Assembly: GCA_030651815.1 (NCBI GenBank)
Contig: JAUSBW010000096.1
Coordinates: 1-36,874 of the forward strand
From: Methanoregula sp.
GTDB lineage: Archaea; Halobacteriota; Methanomicrobia; Methanomicrobiales; Methanospirillaceae
DNA length: 36,874 bases
Reading direction: 5' to 3'
In this document: positions 5,406 through 18,176 of the stretch, in pieces
Layout: each line of letters begins with the position of its first letter
Position numbering within the stretch: the first letter of the stretch is position 1
Translations under genes and position numbers: made by a program
Notes under the pieces: model-generated
What the model was told of the DNA's origin: nothing
What the model saw: the letters and a program-made list of their open reading frames with translations, nothing else
Database searches by the model: none

Positions 5406-6128
5406 TTGTCCCTCAACTCCGGCATCGAATGGACAGAAACCACATGGAATCCGGTAACCGGCTGTACCAAGATAAGCCCGGGCTGTAAGAACTGCTACGC
5501 AGAACGGATGGCGTACCGGCTTCAGGCAATGGGGCAGCCGAACTACCGGGATGGGTTCAAGGTGACCCTGCAGGAGCGGATGCTCCCCCTGCCGCTTGAG
5601 TGGAGAAAGCCCCGGATGATCTTTGTCAACTCGATGAGCGATCTCTTCCATAAAGATGTCCCGACACCATTTATCAAAAAAACCTTCGATGTCATGAGAA
5701 AGGCATCGTGGCATACCTTCCAGATACTTACCAAACGATCCGATCGGTTCAGGGAAATTGAGGAGACCATCAGGATCCCGAAGAATGTCTGGCTGGGTGT
5801 CAGCGTGGAGTCCGAGGATTATCTCTACAGGATAGATGATCTCCGGGCAACACACGCACCCGTCAAATTTCTCTCGCTGGAGCCGTTAATCGGCCCGCTG
5901 CCGGGTCTGAACCTTGACGGTATTGATTGGGTGATCGTTGGCGGGGAGTCGGGACCCGGTGCCCGGCCTATGCAGGAAGAATGGGTGACGGATATCAGGG
6001 ACATATGCCTTGCTTCGAACGTACCGTTCTTCTTCAAGCAATGGGGTGGCGTTATCAAGAAACGGGCCGGCAGGGTGCTTGAAGGCAGGACATGGGATCA
6101 GATGCCGGGTCTGACCGTAACGGTTTAG
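5406..6128 (+). CDS. Phage Gp37/Gp68-like family protein (DUF5131)
   Basis: A 240-residue protein typical of this family: [15 protein letters not shown] at the N-terminus, then a three-cysteine cluster C20-x6-C27-x2-C30 ([15 protein letters not shown]), [48 protein letters not shown] and a C-terminal FFFKQWGG. The family resembles a TIM-barrel enzyme related to radical-SAM proteins, with the cysteines as possible Fe-S ligands; its reaction is not established. The start is a TTG at 5406 preceded by AGGAG with 6-nt spacing, and the usual family N-terminus begins right there. Relatives are often paired with a three-Cys-motif partner protein (TcmP); no such partner is visible here. The setting, between an IS and a Fic gene, is accessory. 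Confidence 0.85.
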
Positions 6129-6254
6129 CAACTTCTGCTCTATCCTCTCCTCTTTTCCACCTGTCAAAATCTATCAACCTATCACAACCTGATAGCTGCC
6201 ACCACCCGATCCGGAGATCAATCGCCAAAATACCAAAATCTCCCAATCCCACAA

Positions 6255-6346
6255 AAATTAGTATTTCCTCCGATAGCAGGTTTCCCAAAACCGGGTCAAA
6301 ATCCCAATTACTAATAAATACTAATTTGTGCTAAATTAGTAATTGG
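6255..6346. promoter_or_regulatory. AAATTAGTA repeats and dyad upstream of fic (probable operator)
   Basis: A perfect 9-bp inverted repeat with a 5-nt spacer (TACTAATTT at 6319-6327, AAATTAGTA at 6333-6341) ends 16 bp before the Fic ATG at 6358. A third AAATTAGTA lies at 6255-6263. A longer outer pairing joins CCAATTACTA (6304-6313) with TAGTAATTGG (6337-6346). The Fic protein ends in a winged helix and could bind here itself. The repeats are seen directly; the regulator is inferred. Confidence 0.55.
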
Positions 6347-6357
6347 TACACTGACTC

Positions 6358-7728
6358 ATGACACAACTGCCCGAAAAACCACCGTCAGACTGGACGCAGG
6401 ACATCACCGATGGGCAGAAAAACTATTTTACTGACGATCAGTTCAAAGAAGATGTGACCGAGTACAACCGGCGCTATCTCTTCTGGGACGAACTGAAGTA
6501 CCGGATACCAAATGCTGACCAGAGGAAGGGGGCCTGGGCAGTCATGAAACTATACCGGTCAATGCGGCAGGAGCATGTATCCTACCCCCCCCTCAGTCTT
6601 ACTTACACGATCATCGCGGAGATTGTGAAAAGCCTGCACATGATCGACAGCTACCTCACCGGCAATATCCGTATCCACAACAAGACCATCCGGCTCGAAA
6701 AGTCGTACATCATCAACTCGTTCATGGAGGAAGCCATCGCCTCAAGTATCCTCGAAGGTGCGGCAACGACCCGGAGCATTGCAAAGGAGATGCTCCGGAA
6801 AGGCAGGAAGCCCAGAAACAGTTCCGAGCAGATGGTGCTCAACAACTACGAGGCGATGAACTTCATTCTCGAGCACCGGGATGACCCGCTCACTCCCGCT
6901 CTCATCCTTGAGATCCACCGGCTGATAACGAAAGGGACCATCGACCGGAACGCGGTCGGACAGTTCAGGACAGACAATGATATCGTGGTCGCAAACCCGG
7001 CAACCGGTGTTGTCTACCACACACCTCCCGATTTTCAGGAGATCGGGATGTTCATAGAGGGACTCTGTACGTTCGCAAACCAGGGTGGGCGTGATGAAGA
7101 TCCCGGTGAGGATTACATTCACCCGGTCATCAAAGGGATCATCCTGCATTTCCTCATCGGGTATGTTCATCCATTCAATGACGGAAACGGGAGAACCGCA
7201 CGCAGCCTCTTTTACTGGTATGTCCTCTCGCGGGGATACTGGCTGTTCGAGTATATGCCCATCTCCCGGATCATCCTCCGGTCGAAGAAAAAATACTCGC
7301 TCGCGTACCTCCATACCGAATATGATGAGATGGATCTCACCTATTTCCTCCTCTATAACTTGTCATGCATCAATGATGCAAAAAAAGATCTCATGCAGTA
7401 CCTGGAAGAGAAACAGGCCGAACAAATCGCAACAAAATCCATCATCCGGAAAATACCGGATATCAGCCAGCGGGAAGGTGACATCCTCCGTACCATGATG
7501 GAGCAAAGCGACGATTACTTCACGATCCGCGAAATCATGCAGCAGTATAATACGGTGTATGAGACCGCACGGACGGATCTTCTTCATCTTGCGGATCTCG
7601 GGTACATCCTCCGGGAAAAACGGGGGCGTGAGTTTGTTTTCATCTTCAACGAGAAGAGCGGGCAGTGGAATCATAACCAAAAGCTAAAGAAAGCAACCGC
7701 ACCACATTCAGAGAAGGAAACCCCGTGA
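6358..7728 (+). CDS. Fic family protein with class II auto-inhibitory helix and C-terminal winged helix
   Basis: A 456-residue protein. The Fic active-site loop is complete at 271-282 (HPFNDGNGRTAR): H271 as the base, the N and GNGR for nucleotide phosphate binding. An inhibitory motif of the (S/T)-x3-E-(G/N) type lies upstream at 129-134 (SSILEG), which makes this a class II enzyme held off by its own N-terminal region. A beta-hairpin for target docking is likely at 210-224 (VVANPATGVVYHTPP). Residues about 375-435 form a winged helix (DDYFTIREIMQQY, then YILREKRGREFVF). Fic proteins AMPylate protein hydroxyl groups; stand-alone forms with a wHTH are common in genomes next to restriction systems. 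The stop overlaps the GTG start of the HsdR relic (GTGA), so they formed one operon. Function intact by motif; target unknown. Confidence 0.9.
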   Translation: MTQLPEKPPSDWTQDITDGQKNYFTDDQFKEDVTEYNRRYLFWDELKYRIPNADQRKGAWAVMKLYRSMRQEHVSYPPLSLTYTIIAEIVKSLHMIDSYLTGNIRIHNKTIRLEKSYIINSFMEEAIASSILEGAATTRSIAKEMLRKGRKPRNSSEQMVLNNYEAMNFILEHRDDPLTPALILEIHRLITKGTIDRNAVGQFRTDNDIVVANPATGVVYHTPPDFQEIGMFIEGLCTFANQGGRDEDPGEDYIHPVIKGIILHFLIGYVHPFNDGNGRTARSLFYWYVLSRGYWLFEYMPISRIILRSKKKYSLAYLHTEYDEMDLTYFLLYNLSCINDAKKDLMQYLEEKQAEQIATKSIIRKIPDISQREGDILRTMMEQSDDYFTIREIMQQYNTVYETARTDLLHLADLGYILREKRGREFVFIFNEKSGQWNHNQKLKKATAPHSEKETP

Positions 7729-9051
7729 CTCCTGCCCCCGCCCGCATAGCCGAATCCCACGTAGAAGAACACGCCCTCGCGTGGCTCCGGGAGCTCGGTT
7801 ACACAACTCTTTTCGGCCCGGACATCACTCCCGGTGAACCCAGAGCCGAGCGCGACAGCTGGCACGACGTGATCCTGAAGCACCGGCTGGCGGCAGCAAT
7901 CGCACGGCTCAACCCGGATATCCCGGCAGATGCTCAGGAAGTCGCATTAAAAAAAGATCCTGCATCCGGACTCCCCGTCACTGGTAGGCAACAACCGGGT
8001 ATTCCACCGGATGCTTGTCGATGAGCTCAGGAAAGCGATCGCCAACTATACGGAAAACGGGGGCACCGGCAAGACTGCGATTGACCAGGAAGAAGCAGTC
8101 GCCGTCATGCAGGAAAAATACGAGATCTGCTGCGGCATCTTCCATGGCTTTGACTGGTCGGACTGGGAAGACCCGCAGCGCCGGCTCGCGCTCCTGCCGG
8201 TTGCCCAGAGCGTCATCCTTGGCATAAAAGATGGGAAGAAACGGTTCATTGGTGCAGTTACGGAACTCTCCAAAGCCTTTGCCCTTGCGGTTCCTCATGA
8301 TGAAGCAATAAAGATCCGGGACGATGTAGCATTCTTCCAGGCCGTACGAACAGCGCTGGTAAAATTTGATGGTGTTGGTGAAAAGGCAGACCGGACCTGG
8401 GACATGGAACATGCCATCCGCCAGATTGTCAGCGGGGCGATTGTTTCCGATCAGATCATCGACATCTTTTCTGCTGCCGGGCTCAAGAAACCAGATATTT
8501 CGATCCTGTCAGAGGAATTCCTCGCAGAAGTCAGGGGGCTCCCGCAGAAGAACGTGGCAGTAGAACTCTTAAGAAAACTCTTAAATGATGAAATCCGGAC
8601 CCGGCAGAAGAAGCGGCTCGTCCAGTCCCGCTCTTTTGAACGGATGCTCGAAGAGACCATCCACCGGTACAAGAACCGGGCCATTGAATCCGTTGAGGTC
8701 ATCGAGGAGCTTATCAATCTTGCAAAGGAACTGCGGGAAGCGGACAAACGGGGCCAGGATCTCGGACTTACGGAAGCGGAACTGGCCTTCTATGAAGCCC
8801 TTGAGGTTAATGACAGTGCAGTAATGATCCTTGGTGATGAGGTTCTCAGGAAAGTTGCCCATGAACTGGTGGATCAGATACGGAATAATGCCACCATTGA
8901 CTGGGCCGTAAAGGAAGGAGTCAAGGCAAAGATGCGGGTGATGGTGAAACGCATCCTGACCAAATACAGATATCCGCCAGACAAGCAGCCAAAGGCAGTT
9001 GCAACCATCCTGGAACAGGCTGAGATCCTGTGTGCTGAGATCAGTGGATGA
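7725..9051 (+). pseudogene. hsdR: hsdR relic: type I restriction subunit with core deletion and A7 frameshift
   Basis: The first about 75 codons from the GTG at 7725 match the HsdR N-terminus (ESHVEEHALAWLRELGY, then DSWHDVILKHRL and AIARLNPDIP). The run of seven A at 7948-7954 breaks the frame. Dropping one A restores [25 protein letters not shown], which continues into the frame that stays open to 9051. Right after MLVD the sequence jumps to the HsdR C-terminal region ([14 protein letters not shown], then [43 protein letters not shown] and RNNATIDW). The nuclease D/ExK region and both helicase domains are therefore gone: full HsdR has roughly 1,000 residues, and about 440 remain. No hsdM or hsdS is visible. 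The second piece could be translated alone from the ATG at 8011 as a C-terminal fragment, but no function is expected. The frameshift could be a sequencing error; the deletion is not. Confidence 0.88.
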
Positions 9052-15048: not shown

Positions 15049-15200
15049 GTGGCCGAATCAGGCGTTGTCCGGCAGACCAGATATATACCCTTTCTTTAAC
15101 CTGTCCTGCCTGTGGCAAGCCAACGGTTGTGGCCCACCCGGCCCGTTATTCACCTGAAGACAAATACGGTAAGTACCGGAGACTGGTAAAACATGATTGA
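15045..15200 (+). CDS. nop10: H/ACA ribonucleoprotein protein Nop10
   Basis: A 51-residue protein that begins inside the aIF2-alpha stop (ATGA) and ends inside the next gene. The sequence reads MSGRIRRCPADQIYTLSLTC, then PACGKPTVVAHPARYSPEDK and YGKYRRLVKHD, the full-length pattern of archaeal Nop10: a short zinc-binding N-terminus, the AHP-x-(K/R)-(F/Y)SPED linker and the YGKYRR tail that binds Cbf5. It works in RNA-guided pseudouridylation. The usual first CxxC pair is reduced: C8 is followed by PAD instead of PxC, while C20 and C23 remain. The aIF2-alpha/Nop10/PAC2 order is conserved in archaea. Confidence 0.95.
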   Translation: MSGRIRRCPADQIYTLSLTCPACGKPTVVAHPARYSPEDKYGKYRRLVKHD

Positions 15201-15948
15201 GGATATCACTGTCAGCTACCTTGAGAGTTTCAAGGACAAGCACTTGGTAGATCCGATCCTGATCGAAGGTCTGCCCGGCATCGGGCAGGTAGGGAAATTA
15301 GTGGCCGAGTATATGATCCACATGCTCAAAGCCGAAAAGATCGGAGAGATTCACTCGATCTATTTTCCCCCTCAGGTAATTCTCGACGAGAACGGCCTTG
15401 CCCGGCTCGCAAGAAACGAGCTTTTCCTGTACCAGTCAGATGGACGCGACATTGTCTTTCTTGTAGGTGACCACCAGAGCACCTCGAATGAGGGACATTA
15501 TATCCTTGCCGACCAGTACTGCGAGATTGCAGAAGAGCTCAAGGTAAAACGCATCTACACGCTCGGCGGTTTTGGTGTCGGACATCTCGTGAATGAGCCC
15601 CGGGTGCTGGGTGCCGTGAACCGTGCGGATCTGCGCCCTGAACTTGAAGAAGCTGGAGTCACGTTCAACCGCGATGAACCCGGTGGCGGGATCATCGGGG
15701 CTGCCGGTCTTATGCTCGGGCTCTCCGCCCAGCGTGGTATCGATGCGGTCTGCCTGATGGGCGAGACCAGTGGGTACCTCATTGACCCGATGAGTGCGGC
15801 CAATGTGCTTGGTGTGCTCTCAAAATTGATCGATGTGCCGGTTGATCCTACGAAACTCAATGACCGGGCTTCTGAGATGGAGAAGGTCATCGAGGGATTG
15901 GTTGAGGGCGAAAAGATGAAAGACGAAGAGCTGAGTTATATCGGGTGA
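15193..15948 (+). CDS. PAC2-family protein (proteasome assembly chaperone-like)
   Basis: A 251-residue protein that overlaps the Nop10 end by 8 bp. The N-terminus (DPILIEGLPGIGQVGKLVAEYMI) and the later YTLGGFGVGHLVNEPRVLGA and GGGIIGAAGLMLGLSAQRGI motifs match the archaeal PAC2 family, ATP-grasp-independent relatives of eukaryotic proteasome assembly chaperone 2. A role in proteasome assembly or activity is inferred from homology only. It closes the operon: a hairpin and T6 run follow the stop at once. Confidence 0.9.
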   Translation: MIEDITVSYLESFKDKHLVDPILIEGLPGIGQVGKLVAEYMIHMLKAEKIGEIHSIYFPPQVILDENGLARLARNELFLYQSDGRDIVFLVGDHQSTSNEGHYILADQYCEIAEELKVKRIYTLGGFGVGHLVNEPRVLGAVNRADLRPELEEAGVTFNRDEPGGGIIGAAGLMLGLSAQRGIDAVCLMGETSGYLIDPMSAANVLGVLSKLIDVPVDPTKLNDRASEMEKVIEGLVEGEKMKDEELSYIG

Positions 15949-15949
15949 G

Positions 15950-15976
15950 CCGGGACAGGCCCGGTGAGCTTTTTTC
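15950..15976 (+). terminator. Terminator after the PriS-to-PAC2 operon
   Basis: CCGGG (15950-15954) pairs with CCCGG (15960-15964) around a 5-nt loop, followed by TGAGC and a T6 run at 15970-15975. It begins one base after the PAC2 stop codon. Confidence 0.6.
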
Positions 15977-16120
15977 GATAGAGTATATTATCTTCCTTTA
16001 CGACGTTCTGTACCCGTTTACGTTTCCGGCTTTTTATTGATGGATGAGAACCCGTGCACTGCTTGATGAAGATCGCGGATTTTATCGTGTACCAGATCAT
16101 TCAGACAAGTGAGGTGAGGT

Positions 16121-16288
16121 ATGGTCGAACAGATCATCAACGGTTTGAGATATGATACGGAGAAATCCACGCTGATTGCGTCTTCAAAAGATGGGGCAAA
16201 ACATCTCTACCAGACAAAGAATAAACGATTTTTCGTAACTGTTCACCTCCCCCGGCACTTCAACCTCAATGGGTTCATTAAAGTATAA
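16121..16288 (+). CDS. Small protein, 55 residues, of the 'NGxRYDTEK' type
   Basis: An ATG at 16121 follows a very strong ribosome-binding sequence (GAGGTGAGGT). The product starts MVEQIINGLRYDTEKSTLIA and contains LYQTKNKRFFV. This pattern (INGxxYDTEKxTxIA followed by LYxTKNGxFF) occurs in a widespread family of small phage- and island-associated proteins of unknown function, normally about 90-120 residues. Here the frame ends soon after the second motif and the tail does not resemble the family, so it may be truncated. It lies between the operon terminator and a toxin-antitoxin pair. Confidence 0.55.
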   Translation: MVEQIINGLRYDTEKSTLIASSKDGAKHLYQTKNKRFFVTVHLPRHFNLNGFIKV

Positions 16289-16319
16289 CCATCTTTTAAA
16301 ATTTTACCGGGCTCCTCCA

Positions 16320-16393
16320 TCAACCGGTACAAACAACAGCGTTTTGTGGTTTGTACCAGCCAGCACCCGGTTGAGTGAGTTCATCGGGATCAT
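16320..16393. repeat. About 75-bp dispersed repeat, copy 1
   Basis: This segment and 17061-17135 share about 80% of positions, with small indels. The ends are inverted: TCAACCGGTACAAA at the left, then TTTGTACC and CCCGGTTGA on the right, so the RNA or single strand could fold. On the minus strand both copies also contain an ATG-P-M-x-x-LNRVL reading, which suggests alternatively that they are degraded ends of one small gene. The two copies bracket the RelE/ParE-like toxin-antitoxin pair. Confidence 0.7.
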
Positions 16394-16521
16394 CAAAGCG
16401 GGGAAAATTCAGATCCTTACATCAATAAATCCGATTACTCTCCTGTTCCAGCGCAGGATTTCATCTCCCCTGAAGTCCTGATACTAAACAGGTAAATAAT
16501 CGCAGCACGAAAATTATTGTA

Positions 16522-16725
16522 ATGACTGCCCAGGAGAGTGCATCAAAACGGATCTCCGTACGTCCTAGCACATGGGATGAGATCCACCGGCTGCGTAAAC
16601 CCGGCCAGACCTGCGATGATGTAATCCAGGGCCTGATTCGCAAAGGAAACCGGACCCGGTTGTATGATGATACGGACCGGATAATGACCCGGGGTAAATT
16701 CGCGGCGCTCTCCCGTGACATTTAG
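16522..16725 (+). CDS. Antitoxin-like protein (DUF7557/VapB type)
   Basis: A 67-residue protein that reads KRISVRPSTWDEIHRLRKPG followed by QTCDDVIQGLIR. This beta-strand plus two helices is the pattern of archaeal ribbon-helix-helix antitoxins of the DUF7557 kind. The C-terminal stretch is likely the toxin-binding tail. Its end overlaps the toxin gene by 11 bp, the normal antitoxin-first order. It probably binds its own promoter; no clear operator was found. Confidence 0.75.
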   Translation: MTAQESASKRISVRPSTWDEIHRLRKPGQTCDDVIQGLIRKGNRTRLYDDTDRIMTRGKFAALSRDI

Positions 16726-17017
16726 GCTCCTCATTGATGAGGTCGGGGCCTTGCCGTTTGTGAGCAGCCTGCCGGAAAAAAGCCGGCGGATCGTTCTTGA
16801 AAAACTGTTCTCTCTTGAAGATGATCCCTTTCCTGGGAAAGGCAGGGATAAAGAACTGATCAAGGCTCCGAAAGGGCGTTCCGATGAGAAAGTGTACCGC
16901 CTGCATATCGGCCATAGCTACACAGCATTCTACCGGGTCCAGATACCGGATAAAGCGGTGTATATCACCGAAGTCATGACCATCGAGCAGGCACATAAAA
17001 AATACGACCGGCTCTGA
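16715..17017 (+). CDS. RelE/ParE-family toxin
   Basis: A 100-residue protein starting with GTG at 16715 inside the antitoxin gene. The C-terminal half carries the RelE/ParE strand pattern DEKVYRLHIGHSYTAFYRVQ followed by KAVYITEVMTIEQAHKKY, with the basic and aromatic residues (K, R, H, Y) expected in the mRNA-cleaving fold. It probably acts on ribosome-bound mRNA, though ParE-type gyrase inhibition cannot be excluded. Both genes look intact. Confidence 0.8.
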   Translation: MTFRLLIDEVGALPFVSSLPEKSRRIVLEKLFSLEDDPFPGKGRDKELIKAPKGRSDEKVYRLHIGHSYTAFYRVQIPDKAVYITEVMTIEQAHKKYDRL

Positions 17018-17060
17018 TGATTCATCAAAGACGAGTGAAAAAGAAGTGGTGAGTTAAGAC

Positions 17061-17135
17061 TCAACCGGCACAAATAACGGGGCCTTTGCGATTTGTACCA
17101 GCCCAGCACCCGGTTGAGCGGCTTCATCGGGACCA
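17061..17135. repeat. About 75-bp dispersed repeat, copy 2
   Basis: Diverged partner of 16320-16393. Relative to copy 1 it has one extra base in GCCCAGC and one more near GGCCCC, so a reading frame shared by both copies is not kept. The dyad ends TCAACCGG and CCGGTTGA are both conserved. The rest of 17018-17386 shows no convincing gene. Confidence 0.7.
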
Positions 17136-17386
17136 TATACAATTGTTCCCCCGATCATGATGTTAAGCGCCATGCCCGACGTTGAGAGTCGGGCGCTGAC
17201 GGCCGGAAAAGCGCCACATGATGCTGAACCCGTATCTCTTCGTACTGTGCGGCAAACACCCGGGTTTTGTATCACTACGTTAAGATCGGACCGGTGTATC
17301 ATTGGGGTGTCATGGTCCGGTCGGATCGTTTCATCGGGTAATTATTTTCATAGACCGTGACGATAAATCATCCCCTCACTCCCGGC

Positions 17387-17590
17387 TTATTTCCCCAAAA
17401 ACCCCACAACCTCCCCAATATCCGTTACGGAGTGCACCGGGTAGATCTTCAAAAAAACAACCCGCAGCTCCTCATCCTCGCTCCAGCCCGTTCGGAAAAG
17501 CCGTTCTCGTCCCGGAAGATCCCGTACTTCTACAAAAAGGCATCGTGCAGCCGGAAACCGGAGATGCTTCACCATCGTCTCTTCTGGCAC
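17387..17590 (-). CDS. Small hypothetical protein (67 residues)
   Basis: On the minus strand a GTG at 17590 opens a 67-codon frame whose codon use resembles the neighbouring genes (many CGG, GGG and GAG). The product is mixed alpha/beta with no motif I recognise; it contains LRVVFLKIYPVHSV and ends DIGEVVGFLGK. About 20 bp upstream is an AT-rich AATTATAAG that could be its TATA box, giving a leaderless transcript. It is divergent from the VapB-like gene, with 40 bp between them that would hold both promoters. It could equally be a spurious frame. Confidence 0.4.
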   Translation of the reverse strand: MPEETMVKHLRFPAARCLFVEVRDLPGRERLFRTGWSEDEELRVVFLKIYPVHSVTDIGEVVGFLGK

Positions 17591-17630: not shown

Positions 17631-17798
17631 ATGGCACCATCATCAGTCCATCGACCGGTTACAGTTGTTTCCGGAGCGATAACAGGAAAGAAAACAGAAA
17701 AAAAAGCCAAATCCCCAGGTCAGAAAAAAGGGCTGTTCGGGCTGCTGAAAGGCTGGACTATTGACAGCCAGGCGATCAGCGACGAGCTCAAAGACTAG
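17631..17798 (+). CDS. VapB-like antitoxin (55 residues)
   Basis: An ATG at 17631 begins a 55-residue protein directly upstream (3 bp) of the PIN toxin. The C-terminus LFGLLKGWTIDSQAISDEL is the toxin-binding type seen in VapB antitoxins, where LFG..KG wraps the PIN active site. The N-terminal 35 residues are lysine-rich (KKTEKKAKSPGQKKG) and do not look like the usual ribbon-helix-helix or AbrB DNA-binding domain. The assignment rests on position and on the C-terminal motif. Confidence 0.75.
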   Translation: MAPSSVHRPVTVVSGAITGKKTEKKAKSPGQKKGLFGLLKGWTIDSQAISDELKD

Positions 17799-17801
17799 AC
17801 T

Positions 17802-18176
17802 ATGCCAACGTTTTTTGCCGACACTTATGCGATTATTGAACTCCTGAAAGGCTCGCCGCCCTACCGGTCCTATAATGATGCCGTGCTGGTCACCACAGAG
17901 TTCAACCTTGCGGAATTCGCCTATGCGGTAACCCGTGATTACCCCGATGCTGCACAGGAGATCTGTTCGAAGGTCAGGCATGGTATGAGACTATACCACC
18001 CGGGGGACAGGGATTACCTGCGTGCATCACACCTACGCCGCGAATCTGCACTGCTGGGAAAGAAATTCTCCCTGATCGATTGTGTCGGGTATTCCGTTGC
18101 GGAATCCCTTGCATTACCTTTTCTTACCGGTGACCGGGAATTTGAAGGGATGTCCGGAGTGGAATACGTCAAATAA
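17802..18176 (+). CDS. vapC: VapC-like PIN-domain toxin
   Basis: A 124-residue PIN-domain protein. The acidic residues expected for metal binding are all present: D7 (FFADTYAI), E38 (FNLAEFAY), D93 (FSLIDCVGY) and D111 (LTGDREFEG). VapC toxins are Mg-dependent RNases that cut tRNA or rRNA; the target here is unknown. Length is normal. It follows its antitoxin by 3 bp and is the second toxin-antitoxin pair within 1.7 kb. After its stop, 18177-18442 holds nothing that I recognise. Confidence 0.9.
   Translation: MPTFFADTYAIIELLKGSPPYRSYNDAVLVTTEFNLAEFAYAVTRDYPDAAQEICSKVRHGMRLYHPGDRDYLRASHLRRESALLGKKFSLIDCVGYSVAESLALPFLTGDREFEGMSGVEYVK

Follow-up and report, generated by a model that had tools for sequence, protein, structure and literature searches.

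Why should two diverged copies of a short sequence bracket a toxin-antitoxin pair at this place in the genome of a Methanoregula archaeon? The window, by which we mean the whole 36,874-nt stretch of DNA that was analysed, carries two direct copies on the plus strand, at 16320-16393 and 17061-17136, which a search of the window's own genome aligned at 83% identity (E 4.5e-14) and which a repeat search of the window recovered in the same register, at a spacing of 742-743 nt. The other 13 matches to the repeat in this genome are weak and only 14-23 nt long, leaving the pair as the only long one, and no third full copy exists in the 3.28 Mb of sequence. A sequence-only reading of this DNA had reported a diverged repeat at 16320 and 17061, and its observations are borne out: inverted ends are present (TCAACCGG at 16320-16327 and CCGGTTGA at 16367-16374), both copies have a minus-strand LNRVL reading that in copy 2 is out of frame with what follows, and between the copies lies a RelE/ParE-like toxin-antitoxin pair, with an antitoxin open reading frame (ORF) at 16522-16725 and a toxin ORF at 16715-17017 whose superfamily is given by its relatives. 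Its interpretation, which wavered between the scars of a duplicated small gene, a structured RNA and the ends of a non-autonomous element, holds in part only.

The cross-genome DNA search with the repeat, which covered 108 genomes of the same family, returned short, weak matches only, and it was one of these, in locus L024, that revealed the minus-strand reading as a protein motif. In copy 1 this reading, IFPALMIPMNSLNRVLAGTNHKTLLFVPVDGGAR followed by a stop codon, matches the C-terminal motif of longer proteins. We use F as a working name for the gene family whose 3' end makes up both minus-strand copies, and P0003 (171 aa), the longest clean F member used, as its reference sequence. With a frameshift-aware F profile, copy 2 scores 69.1 and copy 1 scores 34.0; the highest score among 400 other window stretches is 21.1, and the opposite strands of the copies score 16.7 and 12.7. 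Copy 2 (17060..17335, minus strand), which contains the repeat copy 17061-17136, matches residues about 120-163 of P0003 clearly (17194-17060) and residues 78-119, up to 17335, with weak similarity, and has three frame changes between 17087 and 17152. Copy 1 (16319..16393, minus strand) spans F residues from about 140 to 163 and is soon followed by a stop codon; an upstream in-frame stop lies at 16409-16411, and no clear F homology was found further upstream of it. By sequence comparison, then, each repeat is a decayed F 3' end, copy 2 being a longer pseudogene and copy 1 a 3'-terminal tail fragment. Because copy 2 is frameshifted and copy 1 truncated, both are relics, and an intact F reading frame is absent from the window. 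The idea of scars of a duplicated small gene was therefore right, as both copies are 3'-end remains of one gene family. The earlier reading had set against itself the case that both copies are 3' ends of ordinary paralogous genes; this is literally what they are, but the word ordinary does not fit a gene that sits in an integrated element and forms the edge of a cargo hotspot.

Relatives of P0003 occur in 32 of the 108 family genomes at E 0.01, and the F profile matches 50 of the 392 genomes of a sample of the phylum. Searches of Pfam, NCBIfam, PADLOC and PHROGs returned nothing for F, and no PDB sequence match was convincing. Its predicted fold consists of two beta-beta-beta-alpha-beta repeats (pLDDT 89.7), for which no match was found at E 0.001 in the PDB or BFVD. 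F is an unnamed archaeal family, a gene of integrated elements in Methanoregulaceae. A distant relative of F is found elsewhere in the window's own genome (L107, G000:C228, 1063-1371), beside an ORF that by eye resembles an ArdC-type antirestriction protein. A contig labelled Deltaproteobacteria (L214) carries an archaeal-like F gene, possibly owing to a binning error.

How F copies are arranged in relatives was mapped in 50 fetched loci together with the window. Besides the window, 14 of the 50 loci have at least two F copies on one strand inside a span of about 4.7 kb (L153, L154, L156, L157, L161, L163, L164, L165, L166, L168, L169, L177, L180 and L186), a count that favours F repeats since the loci were fetched for holding F. 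All but L163 and L180 were also recovered as DNA repeats, L163, which is identical to L157 over 2016 nt, having been left out of that run; among these loci fetched for F, it yielded 52 direct repeats in 33 loci, 20 of them joining two F copies. Insertion events are fewer than loci, because of the identity of L157 and L163 and because L161 and L177 share one insertion. In most loci the inner F copy is longer or complete, and the outer copy, downstream on the same strand, comprises the 3' end only. The freshest case is L154 (G095), in which a repeat of 222 nt, 99.5% identical and with 3.78 kb between its copies, begins within F and stops with the final base of its TGA stop codon. Elsewhere the repeats measure 260 nt at 84.6% identity (L157), 294 nt at 86.7% and 34 nt at 91% (both L161), 265 nt at 72.8% (L166), 235 nt at 71% (L156), 77 nt at 87% (L177), 75 nt at 85% (L186), 72 nt at 85% (L168), 78 nt at 83% (L165), 50 nt at 90% (L164) and 67 nt at 75% (L169). 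Their inner start therefore varies, with lengths from 34 to 294 nt, and their end lies within about 9 nt of the F stop codon in nine of ten aligned pairs, window included, three of these ends (L157, L166, window) having been assessed by eye relative to the probable ancestral stop; the alignment in L177 runs about 14 nt past the stop. Excluded from the clear cases were L180, which is weak, L182, L160 and L155, in which the copies are far apart, and L201, whose F repeat lacks the 3' end; in L160 the tail copy is upstream of F, not downstream.

What lies between the copies differs from locus to locus, but in the majority it includes toxin-antitoxin or defence genes. In L161, Pfam matches show a VAPB_antitox/DUF7557 and ParE_toxin pair, a short tail, a nucleotidyltransferase (MNT) and HEPN pair and a longer tail, that is, two cargo modules in series with one tail after each. 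The ParE insertion of L161 recurs in L177 at 94% identity over 746 nt. MqsA_antitoxin was found in L157 and L156, a nucleotidyltransferase (MNT) with HepT in L164, and HicB_lk in L169, above the cut-off, with HicA just below it. L168 has a weak sub-threshold HicB-like match only, and L154 a sub-threshold ParE_toxin match among other genes. The cargo of L153 comprises DUF4062 and HATPase_c_4 genes, that of L186 and L166 a protein that matches no family and a P-type ATPase, with no known toxin-antitoxin or defence gene, and in the interval of L180 none such was seen by eye. L153 (G095:C11) also contains, at 5645-8813, tandem units of ~1480 bp, each combining an F tail with a gene whose 325-aa product looks secreted. 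Direct repeats of the F 3' end thus stand at both cargo borders in relatives and window alike. As in these relatives, the toxin-antitoxin cargo of the window is flanked by two F copies of the same orientation, one longer and one limited to the 3' end; the pair is read in the opposite direction, as are most of the cargo genes nearest F in the relatives.

Intact F is usually preceded by a conserved ORF of 900-1200 aa, found upstream in about 20 loci, and is followed in several loci by a 167-aa ORF that we call MADF (for example L162:5013-5513). MADF occurs in 95 of the 108 family genomes, in up to 17 copies per genome and nine in the window's genome, and has no Pfam or PHROGs match. A viral origin is unsupported, as neither F nor MADF has relatives in the viral contigs searched. 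The spacing between F and MADF is short when empty (78 nt in L187, 97 nt in L160 and 152 nt in L196) and 1-15 kb when filled elsewhere. In L155, 10 kb separate F from a tail copy that precedes MADF by about 150 nt, a position that fits an outer tail being the old F end still in place. Defence genes were found downstream of F in L159, L191, L193, L194, L198, L199, L201 and L202. In relatives, the stretch after F is a defence hotspot of the form F, cargo, MADF, and the 3' end of F is its left edge. Genes observed after F include HEC-01, type I-B CRISPR (L159 and L198), type IIG, RhuM, Fic, NucS-like and PLD-type genes. As an illustration only, because both sets of ten ORFs were chosen by eye and the downstream ones for their defence-like look, PADLOC matched nine of ten ORFs downstream of F, compared with two, both generic, among ten upstream of the large ORF. 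An Hjc-like ORF lies upstream of the element and, in one locus (L217), a tyrosine recombinase ORF does. Both the large ORF and MADF are missing from the window, which therefore holds at most a fragment of such an element.

The place where this fragment lies is itself variable. To its left is a PAC2-family gene (15193..15948, plus strand) and to its right a conserved small ORF (17387..17590, minus strand) with no Pfam match, and these form the borders of the site. The PAC2 region was found in 35 of the 39 genomes of the genus, and among 29 relative loci taken, 14 show the PAC2 gene together with a small gene matching 17387-17590. The gap between the two genes is only 56-89 nt in five of these 14 relatives and is filled in the other nine by 428-1217 nt of other genes, which differ between groups. 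Given these empty and differently filled relatives, the site is variable, and the 1.4 kb of the window is one of several fillings. The insert of the window is absent from all relatives compared at this site. By eye, some of the gap fillings at the site (15949-17386; L112-L140) resemble acetyltransferases or M48-like peptidases.

Taken as a whole, the reading that best explains the locus, with a probability of roughly 0.6, is that the two repeats are decayed 3' ends of F, a relic of the cargo hotspot of an integrated element, lying in the variable site after PAC2 and produced by recombination. The window would then contain what is left of an F cargo unit, in which copy 2 marks the gene side and copy 1 is the tail that was displaced; after loss of the remaining element, this relic would have stayed at, or been moved to, the site after PAC2. 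What speaks against this reading is that relatives lack the insert, that the large ORF and MADF are missing from the window, that the pair occurs elsewhere without F, that several intervals have no known toxin-antitoxin or defence gene or, in L154 and L168, sub-threshold matches, and that L201 and L160 depart from the pattern. We propose that incoming cargo brings with it an attached copy of F or of the F tail, that homologous recombination pairs this copy with the resident F, and that an imprecise join within the resident F closes the far side, an outcome that would push the old tail outward as a scar. The parts of this mechanism that were observed are the tails flanking cargo, the sharp end at the stop codon, the variable inner start, the serial modules and the empty and filled states of the F-MADF interval; no two loci were found that show one element before and after a single insertion. 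The main rival on the pattern is simple duplication with chance insertion, and the main rival on the mechanism is site-specific integration at the end of F.

According to the first of these, F was duplicated in plain tandem, both copies decayed and a toxin-antitoxin pair landed between them by chance, as such pairs may do anywhere. We regard this as improbable. It gains from L157/L163, where residues 60-166, a large part of the gene, are present in the second copy, from the real tandem units of L153 and from the toxin relatives, which are common and scattered, with ten in the window's own genome. However, the repeats stop at the stop codon and usually comprise the 3' part only, and cargo lies between copies in several genera, with differing types of toxin-antitoxin system. 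In addition, PF05016 has 49 matches in 11 genomes (~27.5 Mb), so that ~0.04 would be expected in the 22.4 kb of intervals, where two were found (one shared insertion in two genomes); for PF01934, with 66 matches in the same 11 genomes, ~0.05 would be expected and one was found, both families having been picked after the cargo had been seen.

Alternatively, the 3' end of F might be an attachment site into which a trans-acting recombinase inserts small non-autonomous cassettes bearing that end, with the gene restored and the old tail left behind. A repeat that ends at the stop codon and an intact inner gene are the expected outcome of such a process, the serial modules of L161 with a tail after each fit it, and L217 has a tyrosine recombinase ORF upstream of the element. 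Yet the intervals inspected contain no recognisable recombinase gene, the sequence after the stop codons shows no shared motif by eye, the repeats vary in length from 34 to 294 nt, and L161 and L177 have different outer junctions around the same cargo; we consider this explanation unlikely. A broader idea, that the 3' end of F is a recombination platform at which tail-bearing toxin-antitoxin and defence cassettes without a recombinase of their own stack up and are shed by tail-tail recombination, strikes us as decidedly doubtful; if true, it would amount to a cassette-collecting system unlike integrons.

The weakest alternative, a structured RNA or a miniature transposon with inverted ends, is extremely improbable, for although copy 1 forms a better fold than its shuffled versions (z about -3.2) and the inverted ends are there to see, copy 2 folds no better than shuffles (z -1.1 to -1.3), an Rfam search of the region gave nothing beyond one match at chance level, the dyad is not conserved in 18 relatives (3.39 of 8 pairs formed, compared with 3.61 in shuffles), and the copies are direct repeats of coding sequence. 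The dyad arises from the codons for L-N-R and P-V-E/D. We therefore reject the structured RNA on the combined grounds of Rfam, folding and pair counts, and the transposon ends (or MITE) because the copies are direct, not inverted, and only two exist in the genome. The suggestion of ends of a non-autonomous element fails as far as terminal inverted repeats are concerned, but survives in spirit, since in relatives the gene tail forms direct repeats around toxin-antitoxin cargo.

Several known systems resemble parts of this arrangement. Genomic islands integrate at gene 3' ends, such as those of the SGI1 type at trmE/dusA and those of Dehalococcoides at ssrA, and leave behind cis-mobilizable elements. 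As far as abstracts describe these islands, their cargo likewise lies between direct copies of a gene 3' end and their modules can be serial, but the F target is itself part of a mobile element, F cargo can be shorter than 1 kb and free of any recombinase, and the repeat length is variable. Phages, their satellites and conjugative elements have hotspots of defence and toxin-antitoxin cargo, with two conserved flanking genes (here F and MADF) and exchangeable defence genes between; unlike these, the present element is archaeal, F and MADF have no matched family, and F-tail scars are present. Integron gene cassettes are, like the array of L161, small serial modules separated by short related sequences. 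Integrons, however, are characterised by attC structure, an integrase and the orientation of their cassettes, whereas F arrays have no known attC-like structure, no integrase in the array and cargo mostly in the opposite orientation. No description of cargo bracketed by F tails was found among the titles and beginnings of abstracts that the literature searches listed, and within that scope the arrangement in relatives is best seen as an apparently undescribed defence cargo hotspot bordered by gene-end duplications. The repeat pair may thus serve as a marker for an archaeal mobile-element hotspot with toxin-antitoxin, type I-B CRISPR, HEC-01, restriction and other defence genes. Since each tail is a scar that can be dated, sequence could reveal when and in which order cargo was acquired, and the manner of acquisition at a gene end becomes testable.

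The toxin-antitoxin pair appears ordinary in itself. The window toxin (100 aa, plus strand) alone has no Pfam match and no PDB sequence match, but ParE_toxin is matched by seven of the 11 aligned proteins formed by it and its ten relatives (best E 4.3e-5). Toxin relatives are present in 58 of the 108 family genomes, and an antitoxin relative lies upstream of the toxin in all 11 other toxin loci (E about 1e-6 or better). The antitoxin ORF (67 aa, plus strand) has weak matches to VAPB_antitox and DUF7557, below their cut-offs. In gene order, in the overlap of the two ORFs and in toxin superfamily as judged by relatives, the pair resembles type II RelE/ParE modules, with nothing unusual about it, and we predict that it is one; such a putative pair would act as an ordinary addiction module that stabilises the element. 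No convincing F tail lies near the 11 other loci, one weak match apart, and the pair is therefore independent of F. Upstream of copy 1, a short accessory ORF (16121..16288, plus strand, 55 aa) is a shortened relative of an unnamed protein found in 16 of the 108 family genomes, mostly as 87-aa open frames. Beyond the right border of the site, a small ORF at 17631-17798 and a PIN-domain ORF at 17802-18176 form a second likely toxin-antitoxin pair.
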